Shown: one piece after another, positions 5,539 through 21,587 of the stretch
Layout: the number at the start of each line of letters is the position of its first letter
Position numbering within the stretch: position 1 is the first letter of the stretch
IMG/VR virus record: IMGVR_UViG_3300042449_000918
Coordinates: 1 to 23,404 of that record
Direction: 5' to 3' (one strand)
DNA from: a virus
Length of the DNA: 23,404 bases
Translations under genes and position numbers: made by a program
The notes under the pieces: model-generated
The model's database searches: none
The model's input: the letters and a program-made list of their open reading frames with translations, nothing else
Told to the model about the DNA's origin: nothing

Positions 5539-5539
5539 T

Positions 5540-7605: not shown

Positions 7606-7923
7606 ATGCCATACTTAGTAACTGCCACAATTCAAAAACCTAGTGTTGAAGTTAAATTATACGGAGAAAATAACGAAGCAGGTTTATTGGGCGATTTGTT
7701 TAAAAGAGAAAAACAAAAATATAAAGATGCAGGAGAATTACTATCTGAAAGGTCCGATAATACATCAGATGGTATGAAAAGCACTTATGCTGCTTTGTGG
7801 TCATCACAAGAGGCTTATGAAAGATATTTAAATAACACAGTATGTTTACAATATTGGTCAATGGCAGACAGGCATAATATAACAAACAATATAATAATTA
7901 CAAAACGTAAAGCGGAGGTTTAA
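7606..7923 (+). CDS. Small protein of unknown function in the virion block
   Basis: 105 residues, ATG 3 bases after the preceding TAG, followed after 2 bases by the next gene. I do not recognise the family. The N-terminus (YLVTATIQKPSVEVKLYG) looks like a beta strand pair and residues 25-85 are charged and helical, with Trp66 and Trp80 in a conserved-looking setting (ALWSSQEAYERY, QYWSMADRHN). There are no membrane segments and no catalytic motif. Its tight placement between virion genes suggests a minor structural or assembly role, but this is from context only. Confidence 0.6.
   Translation: MPYLVTATIQKPSVEVKLYGENNEAGLLGDLFKREKQKYKDAGELLSERSDNTSDGMKSTYAALWSSQEAYERYLNNTVCLQYWSMADRHNITNNIIITKRKAEV
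7914..7918 (+). promoter_or_regulatory. Strong Shine-Dalgarno (GGAGG) for the next gene
   Basis: GGAGG lies 7 bases before the ATG at 7926. It stands out because most genes here have no good ribosome site, and it fixes the start of the 157-residue gene. Confidence 0.75.
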
Positions 7924-8417: not shown

Positions 8418-9149
8418 ATGATAGAAAACACTATACTGTGTGTTAAGTGGGGCACAAAATATGATGACTATGTTGAGAAATTAAAATCTCAAATAGAAAA
8501 AAATTGTTCTGTACCTTTTAACTTTTACTGTATAACAGATAATCCAACAAAAGAATACGATATATTATGTCCTAATTTTTGGGACAAATATTATACACCA
8601 AAACAGTTTTGGGCTTATAGAAAATTATATATTTTTAATGAAGATTTGTTTCCTATTAAAGGTAATAAATTTTTATATTTGGACTTAGATATATTAATAC
8701 ATCAAGATTTAAAATATTTTTTTGATTTAGAAATGAGTAGACCTTACATTGTGAAAGGTTATTGGAATGATATAGACAATTGTAAAAAAAATTATGGTAA
8801 AATTATGTCAACTCCTTTAAATTCATCAGTAGTACGTTGGAATAGAGGACAGTTAAAGCCGATATACGATCACGTTACAAAAAATTCAGAAGTTATATTT
8901 TTCACTTATAGAACAATAGATAATTATTATAATCACTTTTTTTATAATATGTGGGAAGAAAATGAAAGTTTTTTTAATGTATATCCTAAAGGTGATGTGT
9001 ATTCTTGGTATAAAGGTAATATATTTCCTGAAGATATGAATTTAAAAAAATTAAGAACAGATCATAAAATTTGTTTATTTAATAATAGTGCTGACACTAA
9101 AAATAATGAACATATGTACGAGATTGATGAAATAAAACAATTATGGTAG
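8418..9149 (+). CDS. GT-A-fold glycosyltransferase-like protein
   Basis: 243 residues. The predicted strand plus acidic motif FLYLDLDIL (residues 85-93, DxD at Asp89/Asp91) is the metal/nucleotide-sugar motif of GT-A transferases. The N-terminus (ILCVKWGTKYDDYVEKL, then FNFYCITDNP) follows the layout of GT8/LPS-transferase-like proteins, in which a short strand is followed by the C-T-D/DN turn. Residues 60-72 (TPKQFWAYRKLYIF) are a typical helix before the DxD strand. Cytosolic, no signal peptide. It is the first island gene and overlaps the next by 7 bases, suggesting co-translation. It probably transfers a sugar to a glycan or protein; donor and acceptor are unknown. Confidence 0.7.
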   Translation: MIENTILCVKWGTKYDDYVEKLKSQIEKNCSVPFNFYCITDNPTKEYDILCPNFWDKYYTPKQFWAYRKLYIFNEDLFPIKGNKFLYLDLDILIHQDLKYFFDLEMSRPYIVKGYWNDIDNCKKNYGKIMSTPLNSSVVRWNRGQLKPIYDHVTKNSEVIFFTYRTIDNYYNHFFYNMWEENESFFNVYPKGDVYSWYKGNIFPEDMNLKKLRTDHKICLFNNSADTKNNEHMYEIDEIKQLW

Positions 9150-9769
9150 ACTATATTAAATATACACCTGATGTTGCTAATAATTGGAGTAGAGCTTGGT
9201 CTGAAACAGAAAAACAAAGACCTTGGGCCTATCAAAGATTATCGGACTCGTCTACAATATCACAGTTACAATCTAAATTATGGATTGCAAGTGAATTAGA
9301 AAAATTAAATTTACATTATAAAAAAGTTGCACTCATAGGAGGGTGGTTTGCACAATACATTACACCTTTGTTAATAGATAATTTAAATGTGGACATAGTA
9401 CATAATTATGATATAGATAAAGACGCACAAATAATAAGTTATAAATTTAATAGAAGATATAAAGAACAAGGTAAATATCAAGCATTTACACGAAACGTTT
9501 TCATAAAACCATTTAATGAAAGTTATGATATGATAGTAAACACTTCTTGTGAACATATGTATCATATGAAAAAAATTAAAGAATTAAATCCAACTTTAAA
9601 TAGTATATATGTTTTACAATCAACTAATGACAACTCTTATGAAGATCATATAAATTGTGTAGTTAATGTTAATGAATTGGCCGAACAAGGTAATATAAAG
9701 GAAATATATTTTTCAGGTTCAAAAGTATTAGATAATGGTATGACACGATTTATGGTTATAGGAAAATGA
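9143..9769 (+). CDS. Class I SAM-dependent methyltransferase-like protein
   Basis: 208 residues. Residues 60-78 (KKVALIGGWFAQYITPLL) give a glycine-containing first strand/loop like methyltransferase motif I (VALIGGW replacing the usual V.D.GCG.G). Residues 86-93 (VHNYDIDK) have the acidic end of strand 2 that binds the SAM ribose, and residues 128-139 (YDMIVNTSCEHM) match motif IV. The protein is short for the family and its motif I is unusual, so loss or change of activity cannot be excluded. It overlaps the glycosyltransferase upstream by 7 bases and the radical SAM gene downstream by 4 (ATGA), so it belongs to one translational unit. Substrate unknown. Confidence 0.6.
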   Translation: MVDYIKYTPDVANNWSRAWSETEKQRPWAYQRLSDSSTISQLQSKLWIASELEKLNLHYKKVALIGGWFAQYITPLLIDNLNVDIVHNYDIDKDAQIISYKFNRRYKEQGKYQAFTRNVFIKPFNESYDMIVNTSCEHMYHMKKIKELNPTLNSIYVLQSTNDNSYEDHINCVVNVNELAEQGNIKEIYFSGSKVLDNGMTRFMVIGK

Positions 9770-10383
9770 GTTATTTTGAAAATAGAAAAAGTATTAATTT
9801 AGATATAACGTTTAGATGTCCATTAGAATGTTCAAAGTGTTCTAGGCAATATTTTTATGCCAAACAAAATAAAGTTGTAGAAGGATTGGATATGTCTTAT
9901 GATGCCTTTATAAAAATATTAAATCATTTTGATACTTTGAATTTTTGTGGTCAAATTTCCGACCCTGTAAATCATCCTAATTTTATAATTTTTTTAAATT
10001 TATGTAATGTTTTTAAAAAATCTTTATCTGTACACACGGCAAATTCTCATAAATCTTTAGAATGGTATAAAGAAGCCTTTGAAACAAATAAATGGGCAAA
10101 TTGGCATTTTGGAATAAGTGGTTTACCGAAAGATAGTTATTTGTATAGAAAAAATCAAAATGGAGACAGATTGTTTGAAATAATGTTATTAGCAAAAAAA
10201 ATATTATATAAAAAACCAATTTGGCAATATATTATTTTTTCTTATAATGAAAACGATATTGAAACAGCTAAACAGATTGCTAAAAAAGAAGGACTTATTT
10301 TAAGATTAATGTTATCTAATAGATTTGAACGTAAAAATGACTCATTAAAACCAAAAAATAAACAATTTTATGTTGAAAATTAA
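9766..10383 (+). CDS. Radical SAM core protein (N-terminal part of a split twitch/SPASM-type enzyme)
   Basis: 205 residues. CPLECSKC (Cys18-x3-Cys22-x2-Cys25) after strand NLDITFR is the classic site for the 4Fe-4S cluster that cleaves SAM. The rest follows the partial TIM barrel of twitch-domain radical SAM proteins (MSYDAFIKIL, NFCGQISDPVNHP, VHTANSHKSLEWY, WHFGISGL). The usual family protein is about 300-330 residues with a Cys-rich C-terminus; this one stops after residue 205, and that missing part is encoded by the next gene in a different frame. The overlap with the next gene is 14 bases. It probably carries out a radical modification of a peptide, sugar or small molecule; the substrate is unknown. 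Confidence 0.8.
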   Translation: MSYFENRKSINLDITFRCPLECSKCSRQYFYAKQNKVVEGLDMSYDAFIKILNHFDTLNFCGQISDPVNHPNFIIFLNLCNVFKKSLSVHTANSHKSLEWYKEAFETNKWANWHFGISGLPKDSYLYRKNQNGDRLFEIMLLAKKILYKKPIWQYIIFSYNENDIETAKQIAKKEGLILRLMLSNRFERKNDSLKPKNKQFYVEN

Positions 10384-10711
10384 ACCTCAATGTTTTTATA
10401 AACAAGAACTTGCTACTAATGCAAAAGGTTTTTTAATACCTTGTTGTTGGTGTGGGCCAGAGGGAGATGAAGATCCTAATTTTAAAAAATTAATAAAAGA
10501 TAAATTTCATTTAGATAGAATTGAAAAAATAACAGACGTTATAAATTCTAATGAGTGGCAAGAATTTAAAAAAGATTTAGAAGAAAGTAATATAAAAAAT
10601 TTACCAAAAAAATGCGTTCATCATTGTTCTGTAGATAATGATGAAGAAAGCATTATAAATGCCTTGGAACATATTTTTGATGGTGATAAAGTAAAAACGG
10701 AAATTAGATAG
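10370..10711 (+). CDS. Cys-rich auxiliary (twitch/SPASM-like) C-terminal part of the radical SAM enzyme
   Basis: 113 residues with Cys8, Cys25, Cys26, Cys28, Cys82 and Cys86 (IKPQCFY, FLIPCCWCGP, KKCVHHC). This pattern matches the C-terminal half of twitch/SPASM radical SAM enzymes, which binds an auxiliary iron-sulfur cluster. It lies in the +1 frame relative to the core gene and overlaps it by 14 bases. Removing one A from the AAAA run near 10376-10379 would join them as one protein of about 315 residues (YVE-IKPQC). The split may be real with two coupled subunits, a recent inactivating indel, an assembly error, or a site of frameshifting. The ATG at 10370 has no strong ribosome site. Confidence 0.7.
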   Translation: MLKIKPQCFYKQELATNAKGFLIPCCWCGPEGDEDPNFKKLIKDKFHLDRIEKITDVINSNEWQEFKKDLEESNIKNLPKKCVHHCSVDNDEESIINALEHIFDGDKVKTEIR

Positions 10712-10719
10712 TATAAATA
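10712..10719 (+). promoter_or_regulatory. T4-type late promoter box, almost touching the start codon
   Basis: TATAAATA followed by CTATT and then the ATG at 10725. The box matches the T4 late consensus exactly. With the usual spacing, transcription would start at or next to the ATG, giving an essentially leaderless message. Confidence 0.55.
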
Positions 10720-10724
10720 CTATT

Positions 10725-11621
10725 ATGTTAAACACGTTTAAAAAAGGTAATCAAGAGTGGTGGATAGGATTAGATGATAGTGGCGTAAGAGCAAATGAAC
10801 AATATACTCATATTAAAGATCCTATTTTAAGAGTCGGTTACAAAATAAAAGAAGATGAATTAGTAGATAACAAAGATTTAATAGGTGCTATGCAATTTAG
10901 ACACAATATTAAATTTTTTGACCAAGAAAAAATACCATCAAAAGAAACAATAGAGCAAATAATAAAAGAATCTCATTTATACGTACCTCATAAAAATAAT
11001 TTAATTGCAATAAACATTAAAGTTTGGGGACCAGAATTTCATAAAGAAAAAGAAACACTTGTATTGTCTACCGTGTGTGGGCCTGCCAGAGACCACTATT
11101 TAAAGGGTGGTGGAAAATTTTATGGAAATTATAATGCTCTTAAAACTAGATATGATGAGTGGAGAGATTTAACTATAAAAGGCAATAATGAAAAAATGCA
11201 AAAATGGAGAAATGAATATGGTTTAAACTTTAATGAACAAGTTAGAGCTCCATACTTATTAGCCTTTACACAAAGACATAGAGAACCTACTGAAACTCAA
11301 AAAGAACGAGGTTATATGCCTTGGGTTTGGGAAAATAATGAAGGAGAAAATGCACAATGTAGATGGTTTCTACCTGCTGGTATGCAAGCGTATGGTATTA
11401 CTCTATTATCTGCTTATAGAGGACTCTACGCCAGTTTTTGTAGATGTTTTACAATGAAACCTTTTCTTTATACAAAAATATTTGAAGATGTATTGGATAA
11501 AGATTATATTTCAGGCCATATATTTCTTTTAGGAATTGGATATAAAGATTATCGTGTGGCATATTATTGTGATAAAAACAAAGCTAGTGTAGATGAATAT
11601 GTAAAGTGGCAGACTAAATAA
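10725..11621 (+). CDS. Nitroreductase-like flavoprotein
   Basis: 298 residues. Residues 59-64 (RHNIKF) followed by IPSKETIEQIIKESHLYVPHKNN (70-92) match the N-terminal FMN-binding pattern of nitroreductases (RRS.R.F ... I..IL..A...PS..N). Residues 218-241 (AGMQAYGITLLSAYRGLYAS then FCRCF) fit the middle helix where FMN is bound, and LGIGYKD (269-275) resembles the closing strand. The insert between 100 and 200 (Trp/Arg/Glu-rich) is longer than in typical 200-residue family members. It likely carries out NAD(P)H- or flavin-dependent redox chemistry, for example saturation or dehydrogenation. Its position after the radical SAM genes suggests a shared pathway. Substrate unknown. Confidence 0.6.
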   Translation: MLNTFKKGNQEWWIGLDDSGVRANEQYTHIKDPILRVGYKIKEDELVDNKDLIGAMQFRHNIKFFDQEKIPSKETIEQIIKESHLYVPHKNNLIAINIKVWGPEFHKEKETLVLSTVCGPARDHYLKGGGKFYGNYNALKTRYDEWRDLTIKGNNEKMQKWRNEYGLNFNEQVRAPYLLAFTQRHREPTETQKERGYMPWVWENNEGENAQCRWFLPAGMQAYGITLLSAYRGLYASFCRCFTMKPFLYTKIFEDVLDKDYISGHIFLLGIGYKDYRVAYYCDKNKASVDEYVKWQTK

Positions 11622-11638
11622 ATTGAATTATATTATAA

Positions 11639-12331
11639 ATGAAAATATTTGCTGTTAGAATTGGCAACAAGTACGGGCCAGAATACGAAGATTATCTCAA
11701 AAGAAAATTACCAGAATACGATTTAAATTGGATACGAGAACCTATTAATTCTAAAATTCAATTACAGTGGAATAAAATGCACGTAATGAGTTTAGATTTG
11801 AATGAACCTATTTGTATCATTGATATTGACATACTATTAGTAAACGATTATAAAAAATTATTTGAATATCCTATTGAACGTGGTGAGTTTTTGGCTATGC
11901 CTGGCTGGTGGAGAGAAGATCAATCATATGTTATAAACGGTGGGTTTTTTAAGTATTATCCTAAAGACTGTAAATACATTTACGATAAGTTTATGTCTGA
12001 CGTTGACCATTGGCAAAGTTTTTATATAAAGAATGGTACTACAACAGGACCAGTAAATGGCGAACAACACTTTGTAGAAGATAGTGTAAAAGAAAGATTA
12101 AAATTAAAAACTATACCTAACAGTTGGGTAACTAGATGGTGTTCTAATAGTAATGCAATAGCTGGCAAAGATTATGAACAGTGGCAGTTTAAAACAAGTT
12201 TAAAATATCAATCATTAACAAACAACAAATACATATACTTTGGTGGTGCTTTTCATCCTGATATAAAATTAGTACACTTTACTAATGCTGTAAATAAACC
12301 ACACGAATGGCCAGATTACGTTAAATTTTAA
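11639..12331 (+). CDS. Second GT-A-fold glycosyltransferase-like protein
   Basis: 230 residues. ICIIDIDIL (residues 58-66) contains the DxD (Asp62/Asp64) after a hydrophobic strand. Residues 104-109 (INGGFF) and the GEQHF motif near 141 match the sequence order of GT8/LPS-type transferases, as does a late VHFTNAVNKPHEW with a possible metal-binding His. It is distant from the transferase at 8418-9149, with which it shares only the general fold pattern. The gene ends cassette A; its last 11 bases overlap the 3' end of the opposite-strand gene. The start ATG overlaps a near-consensus late box (TATAAATG at 11633). Acceptor unknown. Confidence 0.7.
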   Translation: MKIFAVRIGNKYGPEYEDYLKRKLPEYDLNWIREPINSKIQLQWNKMHVMSLDLNEPICIIDIDILLVNDYKKLFEYPIERGEFLAMPGWWREDQSYVINGGFFKYYPKDCKYIYDKFMSDVDHWQSFYIKNGTTTGPVNGEQHFVEDSVKERLKLKTIPNSWVTRWCSNSNAIAGKDYEQWQFKTSLKYQSLTNNKYIYFGGAFHPDIKLVHFTNAVNKPHEWPDYVKF

Positions 12332-12911
12332 TTGTTTCGTAAGCTTCTTGCCAACTAGAAAATCTATTTTGTTTAAATCTTAGACTTGCAGCTACTCTTT
12401 TAAATTGTTTAGCTTCATAATGTATACTGTGAGGTATATCTGTTCTTGCTAAAATAGGTTTTGTGCCGTCTATTTCTGCCACTTCTAATAAATCTAACAT
12501 ATCTTTTTTATAATGCACACCATTTAAATAATAATATTCTGGTATTTTGTGTAAACTAATATCAGGATAAACTTTTTCCGGTATCTTGCTTTTCCACCAA
12601 TGAAACTGTGATACCGCTGGATATAATTCTAAATTAATACCGTAATACCAGTCTTTCCATTTACCATCTTCATAGTAAATATCTGAGTGTATTAAAGAAT
12701 CTTTTTCTTCTCTCTTTTTTCTACCACTTTGAAACATTACAAAAATATATGGTTCCATTTTTAAGTCGGAAAATACATCTAAAGCTTCTTCTGTTAGATA
12801 CTGACTAGCATTCTGTAAAATTCTATAGCCACAAAAAATTCTAGGAGGCTTTTCGTCATATATTTTTTTATTTAATATATTGTTAAAATTTAAAAATCTA
12901 AAATTGTTCAT
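12321..12911 (-). CDS. Putative cupin/2OG-Fe(II) oxygenase-like protein
   Basis: 196 residues. LIHSDIYY (His75-x-Asp77) in a beta strand, followed by WKDWYYGINLELYP, and then ARTDIPHSIHYEAKQFKRVAASLRF (155-179; distal His161 or His164, Arg172 or Arg178) fit the HxD...H...R layout of a double-stranded beta-helix oxygenase. This is the weakest of the seven such calls, because two His and two Arg compete for the key positions. It is the last gene of minus-strand cassette B and overlaps the PP-loop gene by 14 bases. It would hydroxylate or otherwise oxidise an unknown substrate using Fe(II), O2 and 2-oxoglutarate. Confidence 0.5.
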   Translation of the reverse strand: MNNFRFLNFNNILNKKIYDEKPPRIFCGYRILQNASQYLTEEALDVFSDLKMEPYIFVMFQSGRKKREEKDSLIHSDIYYEDGKWKDWYYGINLELYPAVSQFHWWKSKIPEKVYPDISLHKIPEYYYLNGVHYKKDMLDLLEVAEIDGTKPILARTDIPHSIHYEAKQFKRVAASLRFKQNRFSSWQEAYETIKI

Positions 12912-13944
12912 CTTCTATAATTTTGTAATAAGTTGTGATTTGGTCTGCTGGGTCTATCATTTTAGGAGCTACATTATCTGGCATTTCATTTAATTCTTTC
13001 TTTAAATATTTAATCAAACTTTTAACTTCTGACCAATACTCATAATGGTACATTTGATAATAACTATTTAGTTGCTTTCTTAATGTGTAATCTTCATCTC
13101 TTAAATCTTCAAAACCTGACCTTTTAATTCTTTTTTTAACTTCTGGCCAATACTTACTGCATATATTAAACTTGCTTGTTGAATTACTTAGCTTACCTTT
13201 TCTTTTATTATTATGTAGTTCCCAAGAAAATGAATCATCTAAAAAAGATAACATCATTTCAGGTGTATATTGGAAAAAACCAGGCACAGCAGGCCTGTTT
13301 AATTTTATAGGATAACGATACCAAGTTGCTATCTTTTCTCTTTCAACAAGTACCCAATCCATATCAGAATAACCTAATTCAGCTGTATTCTTTCCACTTT
13401 CTCTTAATTTTTTTTGTATAGCAATATCTGTTCTTGCTGTATAACATTCACCTGAACCTAAAACAGGCAGACCATCAACTTTACTCATTAACCATTGTTG
13501 TGTTAATAATTGTGGACTTACGCATTTACTTATTTCTGCAATTTTTAAACAATCTTCTGAAAGCCAAAACTTTTTAATATCAAGCGTATGTATATTTAAT
13601 TTTATATTTAATGAATCACATACTTTTTCGGCCCATCTTCTGTCGTATCTATTATAGGTTTCGTAATCTACAAAATGTGCATTAAAAGGAACTTTAATCT
13701 CATAAAAAGATCGTAACATTATTTCACTATCTAATCCACCTGAAAACAATATGTCAATAGGTAATCCTTGTCTTTTGTCGTATATAGCACTGGCCGCAAA
13801 TTTACATTCTTCTCTCCAGTCTTTTAAGGGCCTTTCACACTGACCATATTGTACTGTCCAGTTATCATCTTCAGTAACTCTATCCACAAACCAATTTTTA
13901 TTATAACCAAATTTAAAGTGATTATTTAAAGTATATTCAAACAT
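12898..13944 (-). CDS. PP-loop ATP pyrophosphatase, asparagine-synthase/PAPS-reductase-like
   Basis: 348 residues. IDILFSGGLDSEIML has the SGGxDS PP-loop (Ser68-Gly-Gly-Leu-Asp-Ser73), which binds ATP and releases pyrophosphate. FNAHFVDYETYNRYDRRWAE (87-106) fits the following strand-helix. There is no N-terminal glutamine-amidotransferase domain (no catalytic Cys2; the N-terminus is only about 60 residues) and no QueC-type Cys zinc cluster, so it is neither a complete asparagine synthase nor a clear QueC. It likely adenylates a substrate for amide, thio or deaza chemistry. It lies between two GNAT-like genes and an oxygenase-like gene, with a 1-base gap upstream. Confidence 0.7.
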   Translation of the reverse strand: MFEYTLNNHFKFGYNKNWFVDRVTEDDNWTVQYGQCERPLKDWREECKFAASAIYDKRQGLPIDILFSGGLDSEIMLRSFYEIKVPFNAHFVDYETYNRYDRRWAEKVCDSLNIKLNIHTLDIKKFWLSEDCLKIAEISKCVSPQLLTQQWLMSKVDGLPVLGSGECYTARTDIAIQKKLRESGKNTAELGYSDMDWVLVEREKIATWYRYPIKLNRPAVPGFFQYTPEMMLSFLDDSFSWELHNNKRKGKLSNSTSKFNICSKYWPEVKKRIKRSGFEDLRDEDYTLRKQLNSYYQMYHYEYWSEVKSLIKYLKKELNEMPDNVAPKMIDPADQITTYYKIIEDEQF

Positions 13945-13945
13945 A

Positions 13946-14473
13946 TTATTTCTTTATTGATTTCAATTTATAATCTATTATATATACAGATATATTTTTA
14001 TAATTTTTCCATAATACATACCAAATTTTTTTAGATATTGTTTTGCCTTCAAATTCATTAGTTACATCATAAGCATATGTCCAACCTAAATTTTTATATC
14101 TATTATCACTGTGAGATACTGCAACCCAATTTGTCATATTATCGTCACACCATTTATTTTCTGTAATATAGTCTGCTTTCATTTTCATCAGATATAACCA
14201 TATACTTCTATTTCTATATTCTTTATTTGTCCAAGACCACAAATGATATATTTTATCGGTATTTTTTTTACTATCAAAAAACTTAATCATTGAACTTGTT
14301 CCTACTAATTTATTATTTTCGTAAGCACCAAAATGTTTGTGTTCACCTTTTGAAATGTCTTTATATAAAGTTTCATAATAATTTTTATCAACTATCATAT
14401 TTTCTTCATCTTTTAAAGCTTCAAATATTTCACTAAAATTTTCTACAATTTTATATTCAATTTTATTACTCAT
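13946..14473 (-). CDS. GNAT-like acetyltransferase
   Basis: 175 residues. HFGAYENNKLVGTSSMI (47-63) is the beta2-beta3 hairpin of the GNAT fold, HLWSWTNKEYRNRS (77-90) is strand 4 leading to the acetyl-CoA loop, with R87-N-R89-S replacing the usual R/Q-x-x-G-x-G/A, and IWLYLMKMKADYIT (91-104) is the following helix. NRYKNLGW (124-131) matches the late Y-x-x-x-G-F/W motif. The missing glycines in the CoA loop make catalytic activity uncertain. It overlaps the next GNAT-like gene upstream by 8 bases. It may acylate an amine on a sugar, peptide or protein; the target is unknown. Confidence 0.6.
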   Translation of the reverse strand: MSNKIEYKIVENFSEIFEALKDEENMIVDKNYYETLYKDISKGEHKHFGAYENNKLVGTSSMIKFFDSKKNTDKIYHLWSWTNKEYRNRSIWLYLMKMKADYITENKWCDDNMTNWVAVSHSDNRYKNLGWTYAYDVTNEFEGKTISKKIWYVLWKNYKNISVYIIDYKLKSIKK

Positions 14474-15137
14474 CTAAATTACTGTATTGCATAGGTATAA
14501 AGTTATCTTTTAGATAACCTTTTTCTTTAAATATATTATGTAATAATTTAGGTTTTAATATTGCATATTTAATTGCTATTGAAGAATTAGAACCATATTC
14601 GCCTAACATATTGTTTTGATAGTTATACTTGCCTATTTCTCCTTTATTATACATACTGTCTATAAAAATATGGTATCTTCTAAAAGCTGAACTATTTTTA
14701 AACCATTCTTCTTCTCTTTTATTCCAACCTTTCACTTCAGTAACCCAATACCATTGAAAACAATTTTTACTTTCCGCAAATTTGACGGCATTATCTATAC
14801 ACTCGGCTAGTCCCATTAATTTTACATTATAAAGATTACTAATGTTTGGCCTTACAGTCATATTTGATATATAATGAATAGGATATTTTTTCCAAAAATT
14901 TTGAGTTAAAAATGACACAATACGTCCATTGTCATCAAATGAACCTAAGACTTGAACAAAACCTTGAACGTCTTCCAGATTTTTAAAATTTTCTGATAAC
15001 TGTAGATAGTTTTTAATTCTATTTTTTAATGTTTGATCGTGTTGTGAGGGCCTTCTTTTTTTGACTTGACTCCACCTTGCGGTAATCAACTCATCAATTT
15101 GTTCAAAATCACCTAAATTTAATCGCCTAGTAATCAT
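14466..15137 (-). CDS. GNAT-like protein, first gene of minus cassette B
   Basis: 223 residues. The N-terminus MITRRLNLGDFEQIDELI fits the first GNAT strand and helix. VQVLGSFDDNGRIVSFLTQ (61-79) fits the beta hairpin, and HYISNMTVRPN (88-98) fits strand 4, followed by a helix at 104-122 in the CoA region. The usual Q/R-x-x-G-x-G/A loop is not evident, so this is a remote member. The start ATG at 15135-15137 lies next to a minus-strand late box at 15154-15161 and has no clear ribosome site. Product and target unknown. Confidence 0.5.
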   Translation of the reverse strand: MITRRLNLGDFEQIDELITARWSQVKKRRPSQHDQTLKNRIKNYLQLSENFKNLEDVQGFVQVLGSFDDNGRIVSFLTQNFWKKYPIHYISNMTVRPNISNLYNVKLMGLAECIDNAVKFAESKNCFQWYWVTEVKGWNKREEEWFKNSSAFRRYHIFIDSMYNKGEIGKYNYQNNMLGEYGSNSSIAIKYAILKPKLLHNIFKEKGYLKDNFIPMQYSNLDE

Positions 15138-15144
15138 ATAAATA
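15137..15144 (+). promoter_or_regulatory. T4-type late promoter box for cassette C
   Basis: Exact TATAAATA. The predicted start of transcription is near 15150, ahead of the ATG at 15167. The box overlaps the first base of the minus-strand start codon (15137). Confidence 0.6.
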
Positions 15145-15153
15145 AGTATATAT

Positions 15154-15161
15154 TATTTATA
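15154..15161 (-). promoter_or_regulatory. T4-type late promoter box for cassette B
   Basis: The plus strand reads TATTTATA, which is TATAAATA on the minus strand. The predicted start is near 15148, just before the minus-strand gene that starts at 15137. It faces the plus-strand box, so each predicted transcript crosses the other's box. Confidence 0.6.
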
Positions 15162-15166
15162 ATACT

Positions 15167-16006
15167 ATGTCAAGCATATACTCAAAATTGATACAAATTC
15201 CTCACTTGAATTTGACACCTTATTTACCAAAGGTGCCATTGGAGGATATGTTAAAAGATTTAAACCAATTTAACGACACCGACTACTTCCCATATAAAAC
15301 TGCCACAAAGAACAAACAATTCTTAGAATTTTTAGGTAAAAATTGGAAAGGTATGTGTTTAATTGACTCAACAGAAGATGGCCGACAACATAATGATTAC
15401 TATACAAGTAAAGTAAATGCTGATGTATTAAAACATAATTTTAAAGATGATAAGGTGATTTTTCAACCTACAAATGTCGGTAAATTATGTCCTCATATGA
15501 CTAAGTATTGTTATGATGTTGCAAAAAGACCTCAAAGAACAAGATTAAGTAGATTAGTTGTGAATGGCAACTTTCATTGGCATAGTCATAAAGTTTTAGC
15601 TGAAGCAGCAACAGCAGATAAGAGATTTACAAATAAAACAGGTAAGTATGAAAAAACATTAATCATACACATTGTTTTAAAAACAAATGATAAGTGTTGG
15701 ATGGGAGTTTCAAATCAACATCCAATGGGAGGTCATCCTTTTGAAATATACAAACAACATTATGGTCTAGGCGAAGTATGGATTTTAAATGGCCATTATT
15801 ATCATAATGTATTTAATAGTGGTACAACAACAAGAGAACATATTATGTTATATGCAAATATTGATGATGAAAAACTTAACCCTATTTTAGAAAAGGCCAT
15901 TGATGAATATAATGGCCCTATAATTGCGGACGAAATTATACCTCAAAGAATAACAGGTTCATTTAATTTAAATCACGAAACTGGATTACCACTTGATAGA
16001 ATTTAA
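15167..16006 (+). CDS. Aspartyl/asparaginyl beta-hydroxylase-like 2OG-Fe(II) oxygenase
   Basis: 279 residues. RLSRLVVNGNFHWHSHKVLA (126-145; His137, His139, His141) fits the first iron-ligand strand. TLIIHIVLKTNDKCWMGVSN (164-183) is the following strand pair, and YHNVFNSGTTTREHIMLYA (212-230; His213, Arg223) is the very typical H.V.N.....R.H.L motif of Asp/Asn beta-hydroxylases, binding Fe and the 2-oxoglutarate carboxylate. The known family includes protein hydroxylases and LpxO lipid A hydroxylase, so both protein and lipid substrates are possible. The start lies 17 bases downstream of the predicted transcription start. The 3' end overlaps the next gene by 14 bases. Confidence 0.75.
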   Translation: MSSIYSKLIQIPHLNLTPYLPKVPLEDMLKDLNQFNDTDYFPYKTATKNKQFLEFLGKNWKGMCLIDSTEDGRQHNDYYTSKVNADVLKHNFKDDKVIFQPTNVGKLCPHMTKYCYDVAKRPQRTRLSRLVVNGNFHWHSHKVLAEAATADKRFTNKTGKYEKTLIIHIVLKTNDKCWMGVSNQHPMGGHPFEIYKQHYGLGEVWILNGHYYHNVFNSGTTTREHIMLYANIDDEKLNPILEKAIDEYNGPIIADEIIPQRITGSFNLNHETGLPLDRI

Positions 16007-16796
16007 TTCGTTATTGTCAGCTGAATTAATCAATTTAGATTTTGATAAAGATTCTTTTATTAAAGAATATGATGAACACATTTTACCCAATAGTAATAAC
16101 ATACGTAACGGCCAACACGTATTATTTAAAACGGTAAATGCAAATTCAAATTGGGGTATGGTTGAACCACAAAAGTATTTAAAAGCAGATGTAAGAACAG
16201 AAACAGGAGCTGTCGTTGATAATGGTTATCCTAGTTGGAAAGGTACTTCACTAATTTACTTAGATACTACTGATGAAGAATTAAAAGAAAATAGTAAAAA
16301 CGGTAGTGTATCTGTTCGCAATTACGTATTAGACAAACACGGAGAGTTTAAGTTTTTTCCACAATATGAAAATTTAAACATAACCAAATATATTAAAAGT
16401 TTACCTTTAAGTACTATTATAGGAATAAGATGTGTTAGTTTACAACCTGATACTTTTTCTATAATTCATAGGGACGATAGTAATTATTTGCCAGACAGCC
16501 AAAGAAGTTTAAAAGTACAACGTATGGTAAACAACTACTTATGGAAACAAGGATTTGTTCAAATTACAATTAACATAAGTGATGGCGAAGTGCCTTTATA
16601 CTATAGTACTACAAGTGATTTGAGTGAGAAATTCAAAACTATTAATTATCCTGTTTATCTATTTAATGATTTTTTTTATCACGGAGTTCCCATTACAAAA
16701 AACAGGCGTCGCCAAATACGAATAACAGGACGTCCTACAAATGATTTAATGAAGCATATAAATAATTCTACATTAGTATATTATGAAAAAAACTGA
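15993..16796 (+). CDS. 2OG-Fe(II) oxygenase-like protein (paralogue of 18837-19586), TTG start
   Basis: 267 residues. IRCVSLQPDTFSIIHRDDSN (145-164; His159-x-Asp161), FVQITINISDGEVPLYYST (188-206), and VYLFNDFFYHGVPITKNRRR (221-240; His230), then QIRITGR with Arg243, give the HxD...H...R set of a double-stranded beta-helix oxygenase. The opposite-strand gene at 18837-19586 has the same order (VRCILQ.., HKD, ITLNIADGG, H, RIQLR). The start is inferred to be TTG at 15993: no ATG lies between the in-frame stop at 15969 and residue 56, and residues 1-18 (IEFNSLLSAELINLDFDKD) align with the N-terminus of the paralogue. It overlaps the preceding gene by 14 bases. Confidence 0.65.
   Translation: MIEFNSLLSAELINLDFDKDSFIKEYDEHILPNSNNIRNGQHVLFKTVNANSNWGMVEPQKYLKADVRTETGAVVDNGYPSWKGTSLIYLDTTDEELKENSKNGSVSVRNYVLDKHGEFKFFPQYENLNITKYIKSLPLSTIIGIRCVSLQPDTFSIIHRDDSNYLPDSQRSLKVQRMVNNYLWKQGFVQITINISDGEVPLYYSTTSDLSEKFKTINYPVYLFNDFFYHGVPITKNRRRQIRITGRPTNDLMKHINNSTLVYYEKN
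16757..16764 (+). promoter_or_regulatory. T4-type late promoter box inside the 3' end of a gene
   Basis: Exact TATAAATA inside the preceding coding region. The predicted transcription start is near 16770, 13 bases before the ATG at 16783. It could give separate expression of the later genes of cassette C; coding chance cannot be excluded. Confidence 0.4.
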
Positions 16797-17481
16797 TTAT
16801 TATAAAAAATTATTATTTTGTCCTTTAGATTTGCCTACACCACCAGATGTAGATTATAATAAGTTTAATGAATGGCATTTAGAACAATTAGAATATAATA
16901 AAAAACATAACAAGACAGCGGCCGTAGCTGATGGTAAACAAGAATATCCTTGGCAGGTAAGTTGGGCGTTATGGTGGAACACTTATGATAAACCAAATCC
17001 TTGGATATGTGATTTTGATAAAAAGTTTCCGGAGTTAGTAGAATATATAAAACAATATCCTTTTACACAAGCAAAAAGTATTAGTTTTCTAAATCAAAAG
17101 GAAAGTAGAGATGTATATTTACACACTGATCCTGATAAAAGGTGGGGTATGCGATTTTATTTGAAAAATGGTTTAGGAGAAAAACTATATTTTGTGAAAA
17201 GTTTAGAACAAAGAAAAGAACGTTTAAAAACTATGCACGAAGGCCAATATAATGATTTATGGGAAAATAGTCAAAAAGAAAAGTTATATGCCAAATTTCC
17301 TACTCAAAGATGTGCTTGGATGTTGAATAGTATGGATGCTTTTCACGGTGTTGAAAAGAATCCTAAACCAGCTGGTAATAGAATTAGTTGTGTATTGATA
17401 GGTGATTATGATTACGAAAAATTGTTTAAACTTTTTGATCGTAGTATTGAAAAATATAAAGAATATGCAATTTTCTACTAA
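16783..17481 (+). CDS. 2OG-Fe(II) oxygenase-like protein
   Basis: 232 residues. AKSISFLNQKESRDVYLHTD (97-116) carries His114-x-Asp116, WGMRFYLKNGLGEKLYFVK (121-139) supplies the next strands, and CAWMLNSMDAFHGVEK (177-192; His188), followed by NRISCVLIGD with Arg200, completes the HxD...H...R pattern. The first 90 residues are Trp/Tyr/Pro-rich (WQVSWALWWNTYDKPNPW) and unlike the other oxygenases in the island, so this is a separate subfamily. It overlaps the upstream gene by 14 bases, and the desaturase begins 8 bases downstream. Substrate unknown. Confidence 0.65.
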   Translation: MKKTDYYKKLLFCPLDLPTPPDVDYNKFNEWHLEQLEYNKKHNKTAAVADGKQEYPWQVSWALWWNTYDKPNPWICDFDKKFPELVEYIKQYPFTQAKSISFLNQKESRDVYLHTDPDKRWGMRFYLKNGLGEKLYFVKSLEQRKERLKTMHEGQYNDLWENSQKEKLYAKFPTQRCAWMLNSMDAFHGVEKNPKPAGNRISCVLIGDYDYEKLFKLFDRSIEKYKEYAIFY

Positions 17482-17489
17482 ATAATAAT

Positions 17490-18254
17490 ATGAAAAATAT
17501 ATTTCGTTCCAACACCGGTTATTTTATACCAATACAAATTACTTTAACTATTGTAATGATATTGGCAATTATACTTGGAGATTTTAGTTGGAAATGGTGG
17601 CTCGCTGGTATTATAAGTTATTTTATTACAGGTTGTTTAGGCATTACAGTTACGTTTCATAGATACTTAACACATCATAGTTTTAAAATGTCTAAATCAT
17701 TAGAATATCTTTTTAGTTTTTTTGGTTCTATGGGAGGAACAGGTTCTACTATAGGCTGGGTGGCCGTTCATAGACATCATCATTCACATAGTGATACAAT
17801 AGAAGATCCTCATAGCCCTAGACATCAAGGTTGGAAAGTTTTATTTCCTAATTACAATTTTACTTGGAATAAATGGGCCGTAAGAGATTTATTAGTAAAT
17901 AAATTTCATCTATTCTTACACCAATATTACTTTTTAATACTTACAGTATGGGCATTAATTCTTACTACTCTATTTGGTATTGCAGGTTTTGTATTTCTAT
18001 TTTCTATGCCTATAGTATGTCAAGTATGGTCTAGTGTATTAAGCAACTATGTAAACCACGCTCAATGGGTGCCTTTTGGTTATAGAAATTATAATCTAAA
18101 AGATGATTCAGTAAACAATGCTCTACTAGCTTTAATTACATTTGGAGAAGGCTGGCATAATAATCATCACGCTACACCAGGCCGTGCTTCATTTAAAAGA
18201 AGATGGTGGGAGTTTGATTTAACAGGTAGTATTATTAATCTAGTTAAAAAGTAA
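17490..18254 (+). CDS. Membrane acyl-lipid/acyl-CoA fatty acid desaturase
   Basis: 254 residues with the three histidine boxes of membrane desaturases: HRYLTHH (57-63), HRHHH (94-98) and HNNHH (223-227), together binding a di-iron centre. Hydrophobic segments at about 10-30, 36-55 and 145-175 fit the membrane helices; the protein lies in the host inner membrane. The GW.AVHR.HH.H.D...DPHSP and GEGWHNNHHA patterns match delta-9-type desaturases. The length is on the short side for bacterial members (about 250-320). It introduces a double bond into host fatty acids using O2 and an electron donor that is not encoded here. It is placed amid the oxygenase genes, 8 and 6 bases from its neighbours, so it is probably co-expressed with them. 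Confidence 0.92.
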   Translation: MKNIFRSNTGYFIPIQITLTIVMILAIILGDFSWKWWLAGIISYFITGCLGITVTFHRYLTHHSFKMSKSLEYLFSFFGSMGGTGSTIGWVAVHRHHHSHSDTIEDPHSPRHQGWKVLFPNYNFTWNKWAVRDLLVNKFHLFLHQYYFLILTVWALILTTLFGIAGFVFLFSMPIVCQVWSSVLSNYVNHAQWVPFGYRNYNLKDDSVNNALLALITFGEGWHNNHHATPGRASFKRRWWEFDLTGSIINLVKK

Positions 18255-18260
18255 TACGAT

Positions 18261-18848
18261 ATGTATTCTAATCTGGCTTTTTTACCTATTAAAGTAGATT
18301 TTTTTAATGATTTTAATATTATAGAAGATTTTCCTAATAAATTTCATTTTTGGAACTATAAACAATTACTAGACGAAAATAACAAATCAAATTATGATGT
18401 AAAATCTTGGCGTACAGATTTAAATACAGAATACGATTTCGTTAAAAAATTAGTAGAACAATTACCCTACGATAATTTATCTAGTGTAAGAATAACAAAA
18501 CAATTACATCCGGTTTTAAAACATTTGGATATAACAACGCCTGATTGTCCTTTAAACATATACGAAGATTTTGTAAAAAATGAACCTTGTGGATATAGAT
18601 TTGTTTTGTTAAACAAAAATACTTTTTTACAATTTTTTATTAAAGAACAATGGGTAACAGCTAATTTGCCTGAAAATACATATTGTTATTTAATGAATAC
18701 AACTAAACTATTACATAGAGTTTTATCTTTTGATAATATCAGTGAAAGAATTACAATATATGTAAGAGGTAATGTTAATAAAGAAAAACATTTAAAAAAT
18801 ATAGAAAATAATTTAAAGCTTTACGAAAAGTACGCTTTATATATGTAA
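18261..18848 (+). CDS. 2OG-Fe(II) oxygenase-like protein
   Basis: 195 residues. SVRITKQLHPVLKHLDIT (75-92; His88-x-Asp90), YRFVLLNKNTFLQFFI (112-127), and CYLMNTTKLLHRVLSF (142-157; His152), then SERITIYVRGN with Arg163 and Arg169, match the HxD...H...R core of the fold. The protein is short, like other phage-type oxygenases. It is the last gene of plus cassette C; its final 12 bases overlap the 3' end of the opposite-strand oxygenase. Substrate unknown. It could be Fe-binding but lack catalysis; sequence alone does not decide. Confidence 0.6.
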   Translation: MYSNLAFLPIKVDFFNDFNIIEDFPNKFHFWNYKQLLDENNKSNYDVKSWRTDLNTEYDFVKKLVEQLPYDNLSSVRITKQLHPVLKHLDITTPDCPLNIYEDFVKNEPCGYRFVLLNKNTFLQFFIKEQWVTANLPENTYCYLMNTTKLLHRVLSFDNISERITIYVRGNVNKEKHLKNIENNLKLYEKYALYM

Positions 18849-19586
18849 AAGTTTTAAATAAGGTTTATTTAATTTAGCAAAAACTCTTAATTGTATTCTT
18901 TGACTTTTAACTTCAGTAGTACAATGTAAACAAGCATCATCAAAATGCCAAGCTTTATGTTTACTTTCATCTATCATAAATTTTTTACCAGTTCTATAAT
19001 CTTGTATCCAAAGATTTGCACCACCATCGGCTATATTTAATGTTATAGAACAAAAACCTTTATCATAAAACATTTTATTAGTTTGGGGGCCACTATCTTT
19101 ATGTACAACACCAATACTAGGTGGTTCTTGTAATATACAACGTACAGTTAAAGGATATTCAATTGGTAATGATTCTATAATACTTTTAGTATAAGATATT
19201 TGTAAATCTTCACGCCAAGACCAAGGAGAAGTATATTTTATCCATAAGGGCAATCTATCGTTATTTTCAAATTTGCCTTCCCAAGATTCTTTTTGAGATT
19301 TTTCTTTTTCAGGTAAATAAGTCAAATTTAACATTTGAAAAGTATTATATTCTCCTTTAACTAATTTTCTTTCTCCGTTTTCTTGTACGTAATGATGTAT
19401 ATGTTTATTCTTTTCAAAAATAACTTCAGGAAAAATATCACCATTTGGGTCCCACCTACTATGGCCTTTATCATTGTAGTCTGTGGTAGCCACCATACTT
19501 TTTTCAAATACATTGTTTGATAATAATTCATCTTTGATTTTTTGTTGGTCAAAATCAAAATCAATACTAGCCCATACTGGTATCAT
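18837..19586 (-). CDS. 2OG-Fe(II) oxygenase-like protein (paralogue of 15993-16796)
   Basis: 249 residues, ATG at 19586 preceded by AAAGGA at 19592-19597 (5-base spacing), a good ribosome site. LTVRCILQEPPSIGVVHKDS (146-165; His162-x-Asp164), FCSITLNIADGGANLWIQD (178-196), and AWHFDDACLHCTTEV (212-226; His221), then RIQLRVF (Arg230/Arg234), give the full HxD...H...R set. The same order and spacing occur in the plus-strand gene at 15993-16796, so the two are distant paralogues or two related imports. It overlaps the preceding gene of the cassette by 20 bases. Confidence 0.7.
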   Translation of the reverse strand: MIPVWASIDFDFDQQKIKDELLSNNVFEKSMVATTDYNDKGHSRWDPNGDIFPEVIFEKNKHIHHYVQENGERKLVKGEYNTFQMLNLTYLPEKEKSQKESWEGKFENNDRLPLWIKYTSPWSWREDLQISYTKSIIESLPIEYPLTVRCILQEPPSIGVVHKDSGPQTNKMFYDKGFCSITLNIADGGANLWIQDYRTGKKFMIDESKHKAWHFDDACLHCTTEVKSQRIQLRVFAKLNKPYLKLLHI

Positions 19587-20196
19587 TATATTCCTTTGGT
19601 AAATATTTTTCTTTAAATTCTTTCAAAGAACAACTTATTAACTTAACTGCTATTTTTTGTTTCGTGTTATTGATATTATATACGTTATCTAAAAAAATTA
19701 AATCATTATAAAAGTTAGAATTTTTATTACCTAATGTTACTGCTTTTTTGTCTTTCACTCTTTTTAAAAATTTAATTAACCATTCGTTATATAGGTTAAA
19801 GGTAAAAACAACTGCTTTAACATTTAATTTTTTAGCTTCTTCAAATTGTTTTGGTAATAAGTAATCGCCTTGCCACCATTTTTTTCTGTCATTAAGATTT
19901 GTCCAAGTACGAGAACCTAATATCATAATATCATCTGACCAAGGACTTATATAACAACCACTAGCCGCTATTGGTGTTTTATCTTTTAATAATACAAAAA
20001 ATTTACCTTTATCAAATCTTTTTTTATTAACAATACTATACATTAGTGATGATTTATTATTTTGCCAATCTTTCCAATTAACATTTTTAGATGCTACACT
20101 ATTATCTTTTTCGGAAAGTTTACACATTTCTTCTAAATTTTTTTTATAATCTTTCCAGTTTAAACTGTTTATAGACAATACTTCAATATTATTCAT
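19567..20196 (-). CDS. GNAT-like acetyltransferase
   Basis: 209 residues from the ATG at 20194-20196; an in-frame TTG at 20211 would add five residues but is less likely. GKFFVLLKDKTPIAASGCYI (about 64-83) matches the GNAT beta2-beta3 hairpin, and DIMILGSRTWTNLNDRKKWW (89-108) leads to the acetyl-CoA region, though the usual R/Q-x-x-G-x-G/A is replaced by RKKWWQGDY. KKLNVKAVVFTFNLYNEWLIKFL (122-144) fits the later strand and helix. Many Lys and Asn. A remote member; activity is uncertain. It overlaps the upstream gene by 8 bases and lies in the same minus-strand cassette. Confidence 0.5.
   Translation of the reverse strand: MNNIEVLSINSLNWKDYKKNLEEMCKLSEKDNSVASKNVNWKDWQNNKSSLMYSIVNKKRFDKGKFFVLLKDKTPIAASGCYISPWSDDIMILGSRTWTNLNDRKKWWQGDYLLPKQFEEAKKLNVKAVVFTFNLYNEWLIKFLKRVKDKKAVTLGNKNSNFYNDLIFLDNVYNINNTKQKIAVKLISCSLKEFKEKYLPKEYNDTSMG
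19592..19597 (-). promoter_or_regulatory. Shine-Dalgarno AAAGGA for the gene starting at 19586
   Basis: Minus strand AAAGGA, 5 bases from ATG. It confirms that start inside the 3' end of the upstream gene. Confidence 0.65.
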
Positions 20197-20656
20197 TGTA
20201 TTTTTTTTCAATAATTCTATTAGCTACTTGTTCAAAACTTTCATTATCAATAGATATTTTAAATAACAATCTTTCACTATTGCCATTTATAACACTATGC
20301 GGTTGAGTAGTATCTAGTAAAGCATTTTTATAGAAATAATTTTTACTGTTTATTATTATAGCCGTGTTATTTTCACTTAATAAAAAATTTAAAGAACATT
20401 TTGTAGTATTATCTGTATGTGTGTTTATATAGGCATTAGGCTTAAGCCAATAAAATCTAGGTGTGCCTACAATTTCAAAATCTTTCATAATTTGTTCTAT
20501 ATAATTGCCTGAATATATGCTAACCTTCCAATCTGTAAAAACTTTATTTGGATAACGACCGTCTGTGTGAAATATAGATAATTTTTTAGCTTCTTCTGAT
20601 TCTTTTAAAATCAAATCTTTTTTAAGTTCGTACTTTAAATGTAATAAAGGTTGCAT
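20189..20656 (-). CDS. Small 2OG-Fe(II) oxygenase, Asp/Asn-hydroxylase-like
   Basis: 155 residues from the ATG at 20654-20656; a TTG at 20665 would add three residues. PRFYWLKPNAYINTHTDN (66-83; His80-x-Asp82), CSLNFLLSENNTAIII (87-102), and TQPHSVINGNSERLLFKISI (117-136; His120, Arg129) are the HxD...H.V.N....R pattern, close in style to Asp/Asn beta-hydroxylases and prolyl-hydroxylase-like proteins. At 155 residues it is nearly only the catalytic barrel. It is the first gene of minus cassette D, with a late box at 20685-20692 directly upstream. No ribosome site is visible. Confidence 0.65.
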   Translation of the reverse strand: MQPLLHLKYELKKDLILKESEEAKKLSIFHTDGRYPNKVFTDWKVSIYSGNYIEQIMKDFEIVGTPRFYWLKPNAYINTHTDNTTKCSLNFLLSENNTAIIINSKNYFYKNALLDTTQPHSVINGNSERLLFKISIDNESFEQVANRIIEKKYNE

Positions 20657-20684
20657 AATTATCAATTTTTAAATAATATATAAC

Positions 20685-20692
20685 TATTTATA
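20685..20692 (-). promoter_or_regulatory. T4-type late promoter box for cassette D
   Basis: The plus strand reads TATTTATA, that is TATAAATA on the minus strand. The predicted transcription start is near 20679, ahead of the minus-strand genes. It lies back to back with the plus box at 20696-20703. Confidence 0.6.
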
Positions 20693-20695
20693 TCG

Positions 20696-20703
20696 TATAA
20701 ATA
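20696..20703 (+). promoter_or_regulatory. T4-type late promoter box for the right virion block
   Basis: Exact TATAAATA. The predicted start is near 20709, followed by AAAGGAG and the ATG at 20724. This is the most complete promoter-leader in the window. Confidence 0.7.
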
Positions 20704-20711
20704 ATACTATT

Positions 20712-20718
20712 AAAGGAG
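20712..20718 (+). promoter_or_regulatory. Perfect Shine-Dalgarno AAAGGAG that fixes the start at 20724
   Basis: AAAGGAG lies 5 bases before the ATG at 20724. An in-frame GTG at 20718 overlaps this site and is therefore unlikely to be the start. Confidence 0.8.
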
Positions 20719-20723
20719 TGAAT

Positions 20724-20933
20724 ATGGCGATTACAATTAATGGTAAAGAATATGATGAAAGTAAGTTCAGTGATAAATTGAAAAACTACATCATAGCAAG
20801 ACAAGAAATACAAAACAATAAGACAAGATTGCTTATTGAAATTGAGAAAATAGACGTTTTAACTGAATACTATAACAATAGAATTATAGAAGAATTAGGT
20901 ATAGAGGTTAAGGAAACTAAAGAAACAAAATAA
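20724..20933 (+). CDS. Small DUF6447-like phage protein
   Basis: 69 residues from the ATG chosen because of the AAAGGAG site. ITINGKEYDESKFSDKLKNY (3-22) followed by a charged helix with IARQEIQNNKTRLLIEIEKI is the pattern I recall for DUF6447-type small phage proteins (VTI.GKEYD...LSDEAK...). Function unknown in the family. Residues about 17-60 are probably a coiled coil. It is the first gene of the right virion block, under a late promoter, so a particle-associated or assembly role is likely. The stop abuts the next ATG directly. Confidence 0.7.
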   Translation: MAITINGKEYDESKFSDKLKNYIIARQEIQNNKTRLLIEIEKIDVLTEYYNNRIIEELGIEVKETKETK

Positions 20934-21272
20934 ATGGCAGCTGTAGCAAACCTATCAATAGACCAAGGCGCAACATTTACATCAGATATAACCGTAAAAG
21001 ACATAAACGGAAACGTATTTGATTTGACTGGCTATACGGCCGTTGCAAAACTGGCCAAAGGTTATTCATCTACAAGAACAAGAACGACAATGTCCACTGC
21101 ATTTGCTACAGATAGAACAACTGGTGTTTTGACTATTTCTTTAACGGCCAATCAAACAACCGCTCTGGACGCAGAAAGATACGTCTATGACGTTGAAATT
21201 ACCTCTAGTACTGGTTCAGTTACAAGAGTTTTAGAAGGAATTATTACCGTTAGACCTGAAGTAAGTGTTTAA
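20934..21272 (+). CDS. Beta-sandwich virion protein (BppU/LtfC-like N-terminal fold)
   Basis: 112 residues. LSIDQGATFTSDITVKDINGN (7-27), DLTGYTAVAKLAK (30-42), TGVLTISLTANQTTALDAER (63-82) and YVYDVEITSSTG (83-94), ending in RVLEGIITVRPEV (98-110), are the standard order of a small phage beta-sandwich found in baseplate and fibre-associated proteins: D-x-G, D-L-T-G-Y, G-x-x-x-x-x-L-T, Y-V-Y-D, L-E-G. The start ATG directly follows the preceding TAA. Structural, not enzymatic. The exact position in the particle is unknown. Confidence 0.7.
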   Translation: MAAVANLSIDQGATFTSDITVKDINGNVFDLTGYTAVAKLAKGYSSTRTRTTMSTAFATDRTTGVLTISLTANQTTALDAERYVYDVEITSSTGSVTRVLEGIITVRPEVSV

Positions 21273-21300
21273 ATTATTCTTTATTATAGATTAAAATTAA

Positions 21301-21308
21301 TATAAATA
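21301..21308 (+). promoter_or_regulatory. T4-type late promoter box
   Basis: Exact TATAAATA in the 57-base gap between two virion genes. The predicted start is near 21314, followed by a purine-rich AAAGAGAG leader (weak ribosome site) before the ATG at 21330. Confidence 0.6.
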
Positions 21309-21329
21309 TAAGTAAAAAGAGAGATTTGA

Positions 21330-21584
21330 ATGGCTAACATAACTGCTAGGATCAGTTCACCTACATCTGCTGGACCCCAAAAAGTATCTGTAACGATACC
21401 ATCTGGTGCCACATTACAAAACAGCTCATTACAATTAAAATTATTAGGCGATGTAGATACGACAACTGAAGGATTAATTGACGGCTCTTTATTACAATAT
21501 AGATCAAGCGATCAAAAGTTTGTTACAAGAACAAACATCATTACAACTACAGGAAATTTAACACTTAACGGTGGAGAATATTAA
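21330..21584 (+). CDS. Small fibre-associated virion protein
   Basis: 84 residues, own late promoter upstream. The N-terminus is beta-like (ITARISSPTSAGPQKVSVTI), followed by SSLQLKLLGDVDTTTEGLIDGSLLQYRSSDQKFV (32-65); the DGSLLQYRSSDQKFV pattern resembles the phage-fibre phrase DG..L.YD....W. It ends in NLTLNGGEY, very like the C-terminus (ITTIDGGTY) of the next gene. It is probably a minor fibre or baseplate component. The stop is 3 bases before the next ATG. Confidence 0.65.
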   Translation: MANITARISSPTSAGPQKVSVTIPSGATLQNSSLQLKLLGDVDTTTEGLIDGSLLQYRSSDQKFVTRTNIITTTGNLTLNGGEY

Positions 21585-21587
21585 TAA

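Follow-up and report, generated by a model that had tools for sequence, protein, structure and literature searches.

An exchangeable enzyme island among the fibre genes of a T4-like phage related to Pelagibacter phage Mosig

The closest described counterpart of the locus treated here is the hypervariable host recognition cluster (HRC) of the pelagimyophages (Zaragoza-Solas et al. 2020, PMC7029224), whose glycosyltransferases (GTs) are interpreted there as modifying the O-chain. The element in question is an island of 18 enzyme-like genes, g7 to g24, at positions 8418-20665 of the IMG/VR record IMGVR_UViG_3300042449_000918, which was analysed at its full length of 23,404 bases and is referred to as the window. 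The flanks of the island point to a T4-like phage (Kyanoviridae) closest to the Pelagibacter phage Mosig, given a VrlC protein that is 66% identical to that of Mosig and 46% to that of HTVC008M, and a fibre-assembly protein that is 73% identical to its Mosig homologue. The virus is akin to phages that infect SAR11-type bacteria.

The region of the window corresponds to the published HRC, given that a VrlC homologue lies directly to the left and a fibre block to the right (the neck gene gp14 falls outside the record), that the content is hypervariable and non-syntenic among close relatives, and that the fibre genes g3 and g4 occur together with the GTs g7 and g12. The HRC is likewise described as a hypervariable region beside VrlC, with fibres, GTs and radical S-adenosylmethionine (SAM) cassettes, and a desaturase and a 2-oxoglutarate (2OG) protein were already noted in its freshwater members, so that the initial annotation of the island as a possibly undescribed modification system went too far (PMC7029224). 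The text consulted contains no g6-linked cassette, no fusion of a SPASM domain to a GT, no pair of independently swapped modules and no set of seven oxygenases, which are the features described below.

A second counterpart is the island of Mosig EXVC030M (MT647606, 54.7-73.4 kb), which occupies the same site and is not discussed in the genome announcement (PMC7892664). Both islands contain GTs, a radical SAM protein with a SPASM half, nitroreductases, a desaturase, 2OG enzymes and a GNAT protein, whereas the epimerase, the ArnB-like aminotransferase, the carbamoyltransferase and the C7 GT of Mosig are all absent from the window, and most right-module genes are not homologous between the two.

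The gtr/oac serotype-conversion modules would act in a similar manner if the target of the island were a host glycan. These modules rely on polytopic membrane GTs, flippases or membrane acyltransferases, none of which was found in the window; the g20 desaturase is its sole polytopic protein according to a hydropathy scan. The g8 family, which carries a TSCEH motif, matches at least 588 viral loci. Clusters in which it stands alongside multiple radical SAM genes occur both on unrelated viral contigs and in Bdellovibrionales (L285-L349 in part, e.g., L301, L314 and L342, as well as L187 and L208). These clusters have in common with the island the g8 family beside radical SAM enzymes, as well as Asp/Asn hydroxylases, but, unlike the window, they mostly lack GTs, g6 and fibre anchors. 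No description of the g6-linked cassette, the SPASM-GT fusion or the modular swaps was found in the papers searched. The variable site itself was already known, while its conserved sugar-handling core and the swapping of cassettes are new as far as could be found.

A facultative site with two exchanged modules

The initial annotation had proposed that the two flanks be compared in related phages, and this comparison revealed an island that is facultative and variable, rather than constantly present. In the 21 sequences compared, the interval between g2 and g26 ranges from 53 bp in P-HM1 to 2.2 kb in HTVC008M, 15.2 kb in the window and 19.9 kb in Mosig, where it consists mostly of enzymes; the 11 kb of Melnitz are made up mostly of fibre-like or unnamed genes. 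The IMG/VR contigs used in this and the following comparisons are fragments on which the open reading frames (ORFs) were called mechanically, and several of the profiles were built on few sequences. One contig (L091) is 97.3% identical to the window to the right of position 20696, yet its enzyme island is unrelated. In four contigs the anchors are 83-97% identical to those of the window, but the enzymes between them form a wholly different set (radical SAM/SPASM, 2OG oxygenases and a cupin), the replaced islands encoding four radical SAM and three 2OG proteins and no GTs.

Nearly the same island as that of the window is found, by contrast, in a more distant phage (L097), which differs only slightly: g18 is missing, and three genes are added, one beside g24, one for a GNAT and one other. 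At conserved residues, the window and L097 use identical codons in 79% of cases in the island, 55% in the immediate flanks (g3, g4 and g25) and 63% in the backbone genes (Fisher P about 1e-26 for the island against the immediate flanks), which argues that transfer of the island as a block, with g5 and g6 included, took place more recently than the divergence of the backbones. The similarity of the DNA to the island-swapped relatives stops inside g3, at about 6061-6178, and resumes on the right at about 20690-20696, precisely where the late promoter of g25 lies, a pattern that points to exchange through recombination in the common flanks at these two sites.

The island is composed of a left cassette (g6-g12) and a separately exchanged right module (g13-g24), which contains oxygenases, GNATs, a PP-loop protein and a desaturase. 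Two contigs (L101 and L103) share a stretch of 4964 bp covering the right module with 99.4% identity, although the whole g6-to-g8 cassette is missing from L101. The fibres of L103 and L106 are 92% identical and their right ends 99.4%, yet their right modules differ, and right modules are also retained where the fibres differ. Given these comparisons, the right module is exchanged independently of both the fibres and the left cassette.

The g6-linked cassette

The left cassette begins with g6 (family C6; 7926-8399, plus strand), an orphan protein of 157 aa with homologues at 64 IMG/VR loci. Where at least 4 kb were available downstream, a GT was found within 7 kb of g6 in 45 of 49 loci and a member of the g8 family in 44 of 49, and most of these loci also carry a second GT-like family (C7, with a DxD motif) and a SPASM-GT fusion, often accompanied by a carbamoyltransferase. 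A reverse scan from g8 recovered g6 in nearly every locus where GT and fibre anchors occur together, as well as a second class of viral clusters, which lack g6 and contain several radical SAM genes. This linkage marks g6 as a dedicated companion of the GT cassette that is co-transferred with the island. The AlphaFold2 model of g6, although locally confident (predicted local distance difference test, pLDDT, 87; predicted template modelling score, pTM, 0.48), had no match in BFVD or the PDB at E 0.001, and no convincing fold match. The whole cassette, with VrlC, was also observed in L245, one of three loci (with L249 and L215) that look like phage DNA and are binned as Rhodobiaceae, Ca. Pelagibacter and Gammaproteobacteria genomes.

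The radical SAM core (g9) and the SPASM half (g10) are encoded by separate overlapping genes (9766-10711), and this split is retained in diverged relatives. In many relatives, the SPASM part and a GT form a single protein (e.g., L076:209-1294 and L117:11012-12070), a connection between the radical SAM and glycan steps. A programmed frameshift joining g9 and g10 was considered and rejected, because the relative frame, which is +1 in the window, L085 and L043, is different in L074 and L035; an overlap with translational coupling is more likely. As a separate observation, members of the carbamoyltransferase family C44 in L129 (8637-11510), and also in L147 and L165, begin with a fused N-terminal part of the radical SAM/twitch type.

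The absence of nucleotide-sugar biosynthesis, noted in the initial annotation, is valid for the window and does not extend to its relatives, which carry an NAD-dependent epimerase at the same place, where the deposited annotation of Mosig also records an ArnB-type aminotransferase and a carbamoyltransferase. Given these enzymes, the linkage of g6, GT and g8, the SPASM-GT fusion, and the many GT and radical SAM neighbours of the chromosomal g8 homologues (a count made with no background set for comparison), we infer that the left part is a cytosolic glycan pathway.

Genes and promoters of the island

All 18 ORFs of the island exist as initially annotated between virion gene blocks; they form four gene runs with almost no intergenic space, and their being chance or mis-called frames is ruled out, because they recur in the same order on independent contigs. 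To their left, on the plus strand, lie the VrlC-type baseplate gene g1, open at its 5' end, and g2, which encodes a virion protein of 72 aa (together 1-5758; PHROG 358/473 and VrlC homology), followed by the fibre-like genes g3 (5762-6649; tail-fibre/baseplate PHROGs), with a conserved N-terminal part and a type-specific C-terminal part, and g4 (family C5; 6667-7602), which precedes most cassettes according to family comparison. The small protein g5 (7606-7923, plus strand) belongs to a family with 54 hits in an iterative hidden Markov model search. Members of this family have about 90-118 aa and recur in many such islands, often beside a desaturase or at the end of the island (e.g., L106:10423-10737 and L103:11909-12265). 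To the right lie a small ORF, an L-shaped-tail-fibre-assembly homologue (g26) and then fibre genes; this anchor (g25-g28; 20718-23282, plus strand) was identified through PHROGs and is conserved in relatives.

The island comprises two GTs, one protein with a SAM-binding fold, the radical SAM and SPASM pair, one nitroreductase-family protein, one PP-loop protein, three GNAT-like and seven 2OG-oxygenase-like proteins, and one desaturase, a tally that agrees with the initial annotation, several of the assignments being weak or made at the motif level. The left run, on the plus strand, opens with the GT8-like g7 (8418-9149), which has a DxD motif and a match to PF01501 (E 6.5e-4) that falls below Pfam's cut-off, and closes with g12 (11639-12331), assigned to the same family by its homology to g7. 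Between these, g8 (family C8; 9143-9769), which has a HINC motif in addition to TSCEH, gave weak PDB profile matches to methyltransferase and spermidine synthase folds, i.e., to the SAM-binding Rossmann fold; g9 (9766-10383) has the CxxxCxxC motif of the radical SAM core (phrog_21308, 1.1e-10; TIGR04317, W_rSAM, 1.4e-7); g10 (10370-10711) matches PF13186 (2.7e-3); and g11 (10725-11621) aligned in a profile-profile comparison (hhalign, 99.7%) to the nitroreductase-annotated family C49.

The second run, on the minus strand, includes the oxygenase-like g13 (12321-12911), with an HxD...H...R motif conserved in six sequences, and the PP-loop protein g14 (12898-13944), with the motif SGGLDS and a match to PF01171 (5.3e-4); neither g14 nor g11 had a tblastn match among isolated phages. 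It also includes the GNAT-like g15 (13946-14473; PF00583, 1.4e-3) and its partner half g16 (14466-15137), the two forming a single tandem GNAT-type protein of about 390 aa in L259, L260 (6246-7415), L262 (9546-10721) and L264.

The third run, on the plus strand, begins with g17 (15167-16006), a member of the Asp/Asn beta-hydroxylase family (PF05118, 8.8e-5, just above the cut-off; hhalign 97.6% to C16) whose metal motif is the variant HxH...H...R. It continues with the oxygenase-like g18 (15993-16796), a paralogue of g22 with 26% identity to it and a conserved HxD...H...R motif, and g19 (16783-17481), in which H114, D116 and H188 are invariant across nine sequences with identities down to 26%. 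These are followed by the membrane fatty-acid desaturase g20 (17490-18254; PF00487, 1.4e-18; DesA family, 1e-27) and the more weakly assigned oxygenase-like g21 (18261-18848), the motif of which was seen in two near-identical sequences only. The last run, on the minus strand, is made up of the oxygenase-like g22 (18837-19586; conserved H162-D164...H221...R230), the weakly GNAT-like g23 (19567-20211; hhalign 71% to C82) and the Asp/Asn hydroxylase-like 2OG oxygenase g24 (20189-20665; hhalign 91% to C16).

The HxD...H triad is kept in divergent homologues of g13, g18, g19, g22 and g24, usually with the distal Arg, and g17 and g24 match the Asp/Asn hydroxylase family by profile. The other five of the seven putative oxygenases (g13, g18, g19, g21 and g22) are assigned at the motif level, because the AlphaFold2 model of g19 (pLDDT 38) was too poor for the fold to be read. 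In another type of T4-like phage (L267, L268 and L269), inspection of the translations by eye revealed, immediately ahead of the neck-type genes, a row made up of some eight 2OG-like genes together with genes for an AlkB-like membrane hydroxylase, a GNAT and an SDR.

The motif TATAAATA, the core of the T4 late promoter, occurs seven times in the window, and six of the copies fall in non-coding DNA, which is 1% of the sequence. These copies form two divergent pairs, one at 15137-15161, directed leftward to g16 and rightward to g17, and one at 20685-20703, directed to g24 and g25 and coinciding with the right edge of the exchanged DNA, with further copies before g27 and g11, the latter too near the start codon to be convincing. 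The shared late promoters of the initial annotation are confirmed for g13-g25 and not for g7-g12, which lack an evident promoter and are possibly transcribed by read-through from the fibre genes. Expression in the early phase alone is unlikely, because half of the island has promoters of the T4 late type. The available pelagiphage transcriptome study covers HTVC022P and HTVC027P, and not myophages (PMC12753301).

Possible targets of the island enzymes

The best reading, to which we give a probability of about 0.45, is that the island tailors the surface glycans and lipids of the host envelope late in infection, as the enzymatic part of the hypervariable HRC of a SAR11-type T4-like phage. The soluble GTs, the SAM-binding-fold protein, the radical SAM/SPASM pair working with a GT, and the nitroreductase of the left part would act on a glycan, and the oxygenases, acyltransferases, PP-loop enzyme and membrane desaturase of the right part would be made late in infection. 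The chemistry of the surface of the infected cell, both glycan of the lipopolysaccharide (LPS) type and lipid, would be altered in this way, and sibling or competing phages would no longer bind. Envelope tailoring is favoured by the glycan families, by the desaturase, by the chromosomal surroundings of g8, by right modules that vary independently of the fibre type, and by the published O-chain reading of the HRC GTs (PMC7029224). Several points weigh against it, however. The late promoters suit virion assembly at least as well as the exclusion of other phages, a set of seven different oxygenases is not what is usually seen in an LPS pathway, and several of the enzyme assignments are based on motifs. 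The window encodes no flippase, polymerase, ligase or polytopic GT, and any envelope glycan would therefore need the machinery of the host. Finally, g6 is always found on the fibre strand, directly behind the fibre genes.

This last point is also one of the strengths of the main rival, which is less likely though the nearest in probability. In this reading, fibre or baseplate proteins would be glycosylated, hydroxylated and acylated by the soluble enzymes while still in the cytosol, either ahead of assembly or in the course of it, and g6 would serve as acceptor, adaptor or assembly partner. The modification of the virion would fit the location of the island among fibre genes, the late promoters, the nearly constant association of g6 with the GT cassette, the start of the exchanged DNA inside the fibre gene g3, and the solubility of the enzymes, the desaturase being the only membrane protein. 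The initial annotation had likewise named virion or fibre proteins, or the host envelope, as targets, and the position among fibre genes, with a right edge at a late promoter, agrees with this suggestion, although the fibres as target are weakened by right modules that swap while the fibres stay 92% identical, and that persist while the fibres differ. The membrane desaturase has no obvious role in this scheme, and the fibre protein g4 was rejected as an obligatory target, because it is missing from some of the cassette loci (L142, L148 and L154). A more specific proposal, which we consider less probable still, is a dedicated phage glycosylation system in which g6 would be the acceptor or adaptor, the GT-coupled radical SAM/SPASM pair and the TSCEH-family protein would build an unusual virion sugar, and the exchangeable oxygenase and acyltransferase modules would tune it. 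If the virion is indeed the target, this would be an elaborate decoration of phage proteins, of which no report was found.

It is improbable that the right module supports replication by tailoring a diffusible metabolite or the membrane lipids, at a permissive site where it merely happens to lie. Such tailoring is typically carried out by oxygenase, GNAT, PP-loop, nitroreductase and desaturase families, the right module of L101 occurs without any GT cassette, and similar oxygenase sets precede the neck genes of other T4-like phages (L267), but the left part has a glycan-like character and is linked to g6, and both the late timing and the repeated placement at the fibre locus speak against small-molecule or lipid metabolism. 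Least probable is a system of the ribosomally synthesized and post-translationally modified peptide (RiPP) type, in which the radical SAM/SPASM enzymes and oxygenases modify a phage peptide, since, even though SPASM enzymes often act on peptides, the replaced islands have four radical SAM and three 2OG proteins with no GTs, and the g5 family recurs in islands, the SPASM part is fused to a GT, the g5 homologues look full-length and folded, with no core-peptide pattern, and no island gene among the ORFs of at least 60 aa resembles a short precursor with leader and core.

Few viruses in water are as abundant as the SAR11 phages, whose large variable region has so far been explained only in general terms. 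This region can now be divided into two separately exchanged modules, one of which holds a conserved cassette (g6, GT, g8 and radical SAM/SPASM) that is present on dozens of contigs and has a relative in the cultured phage Mosig.

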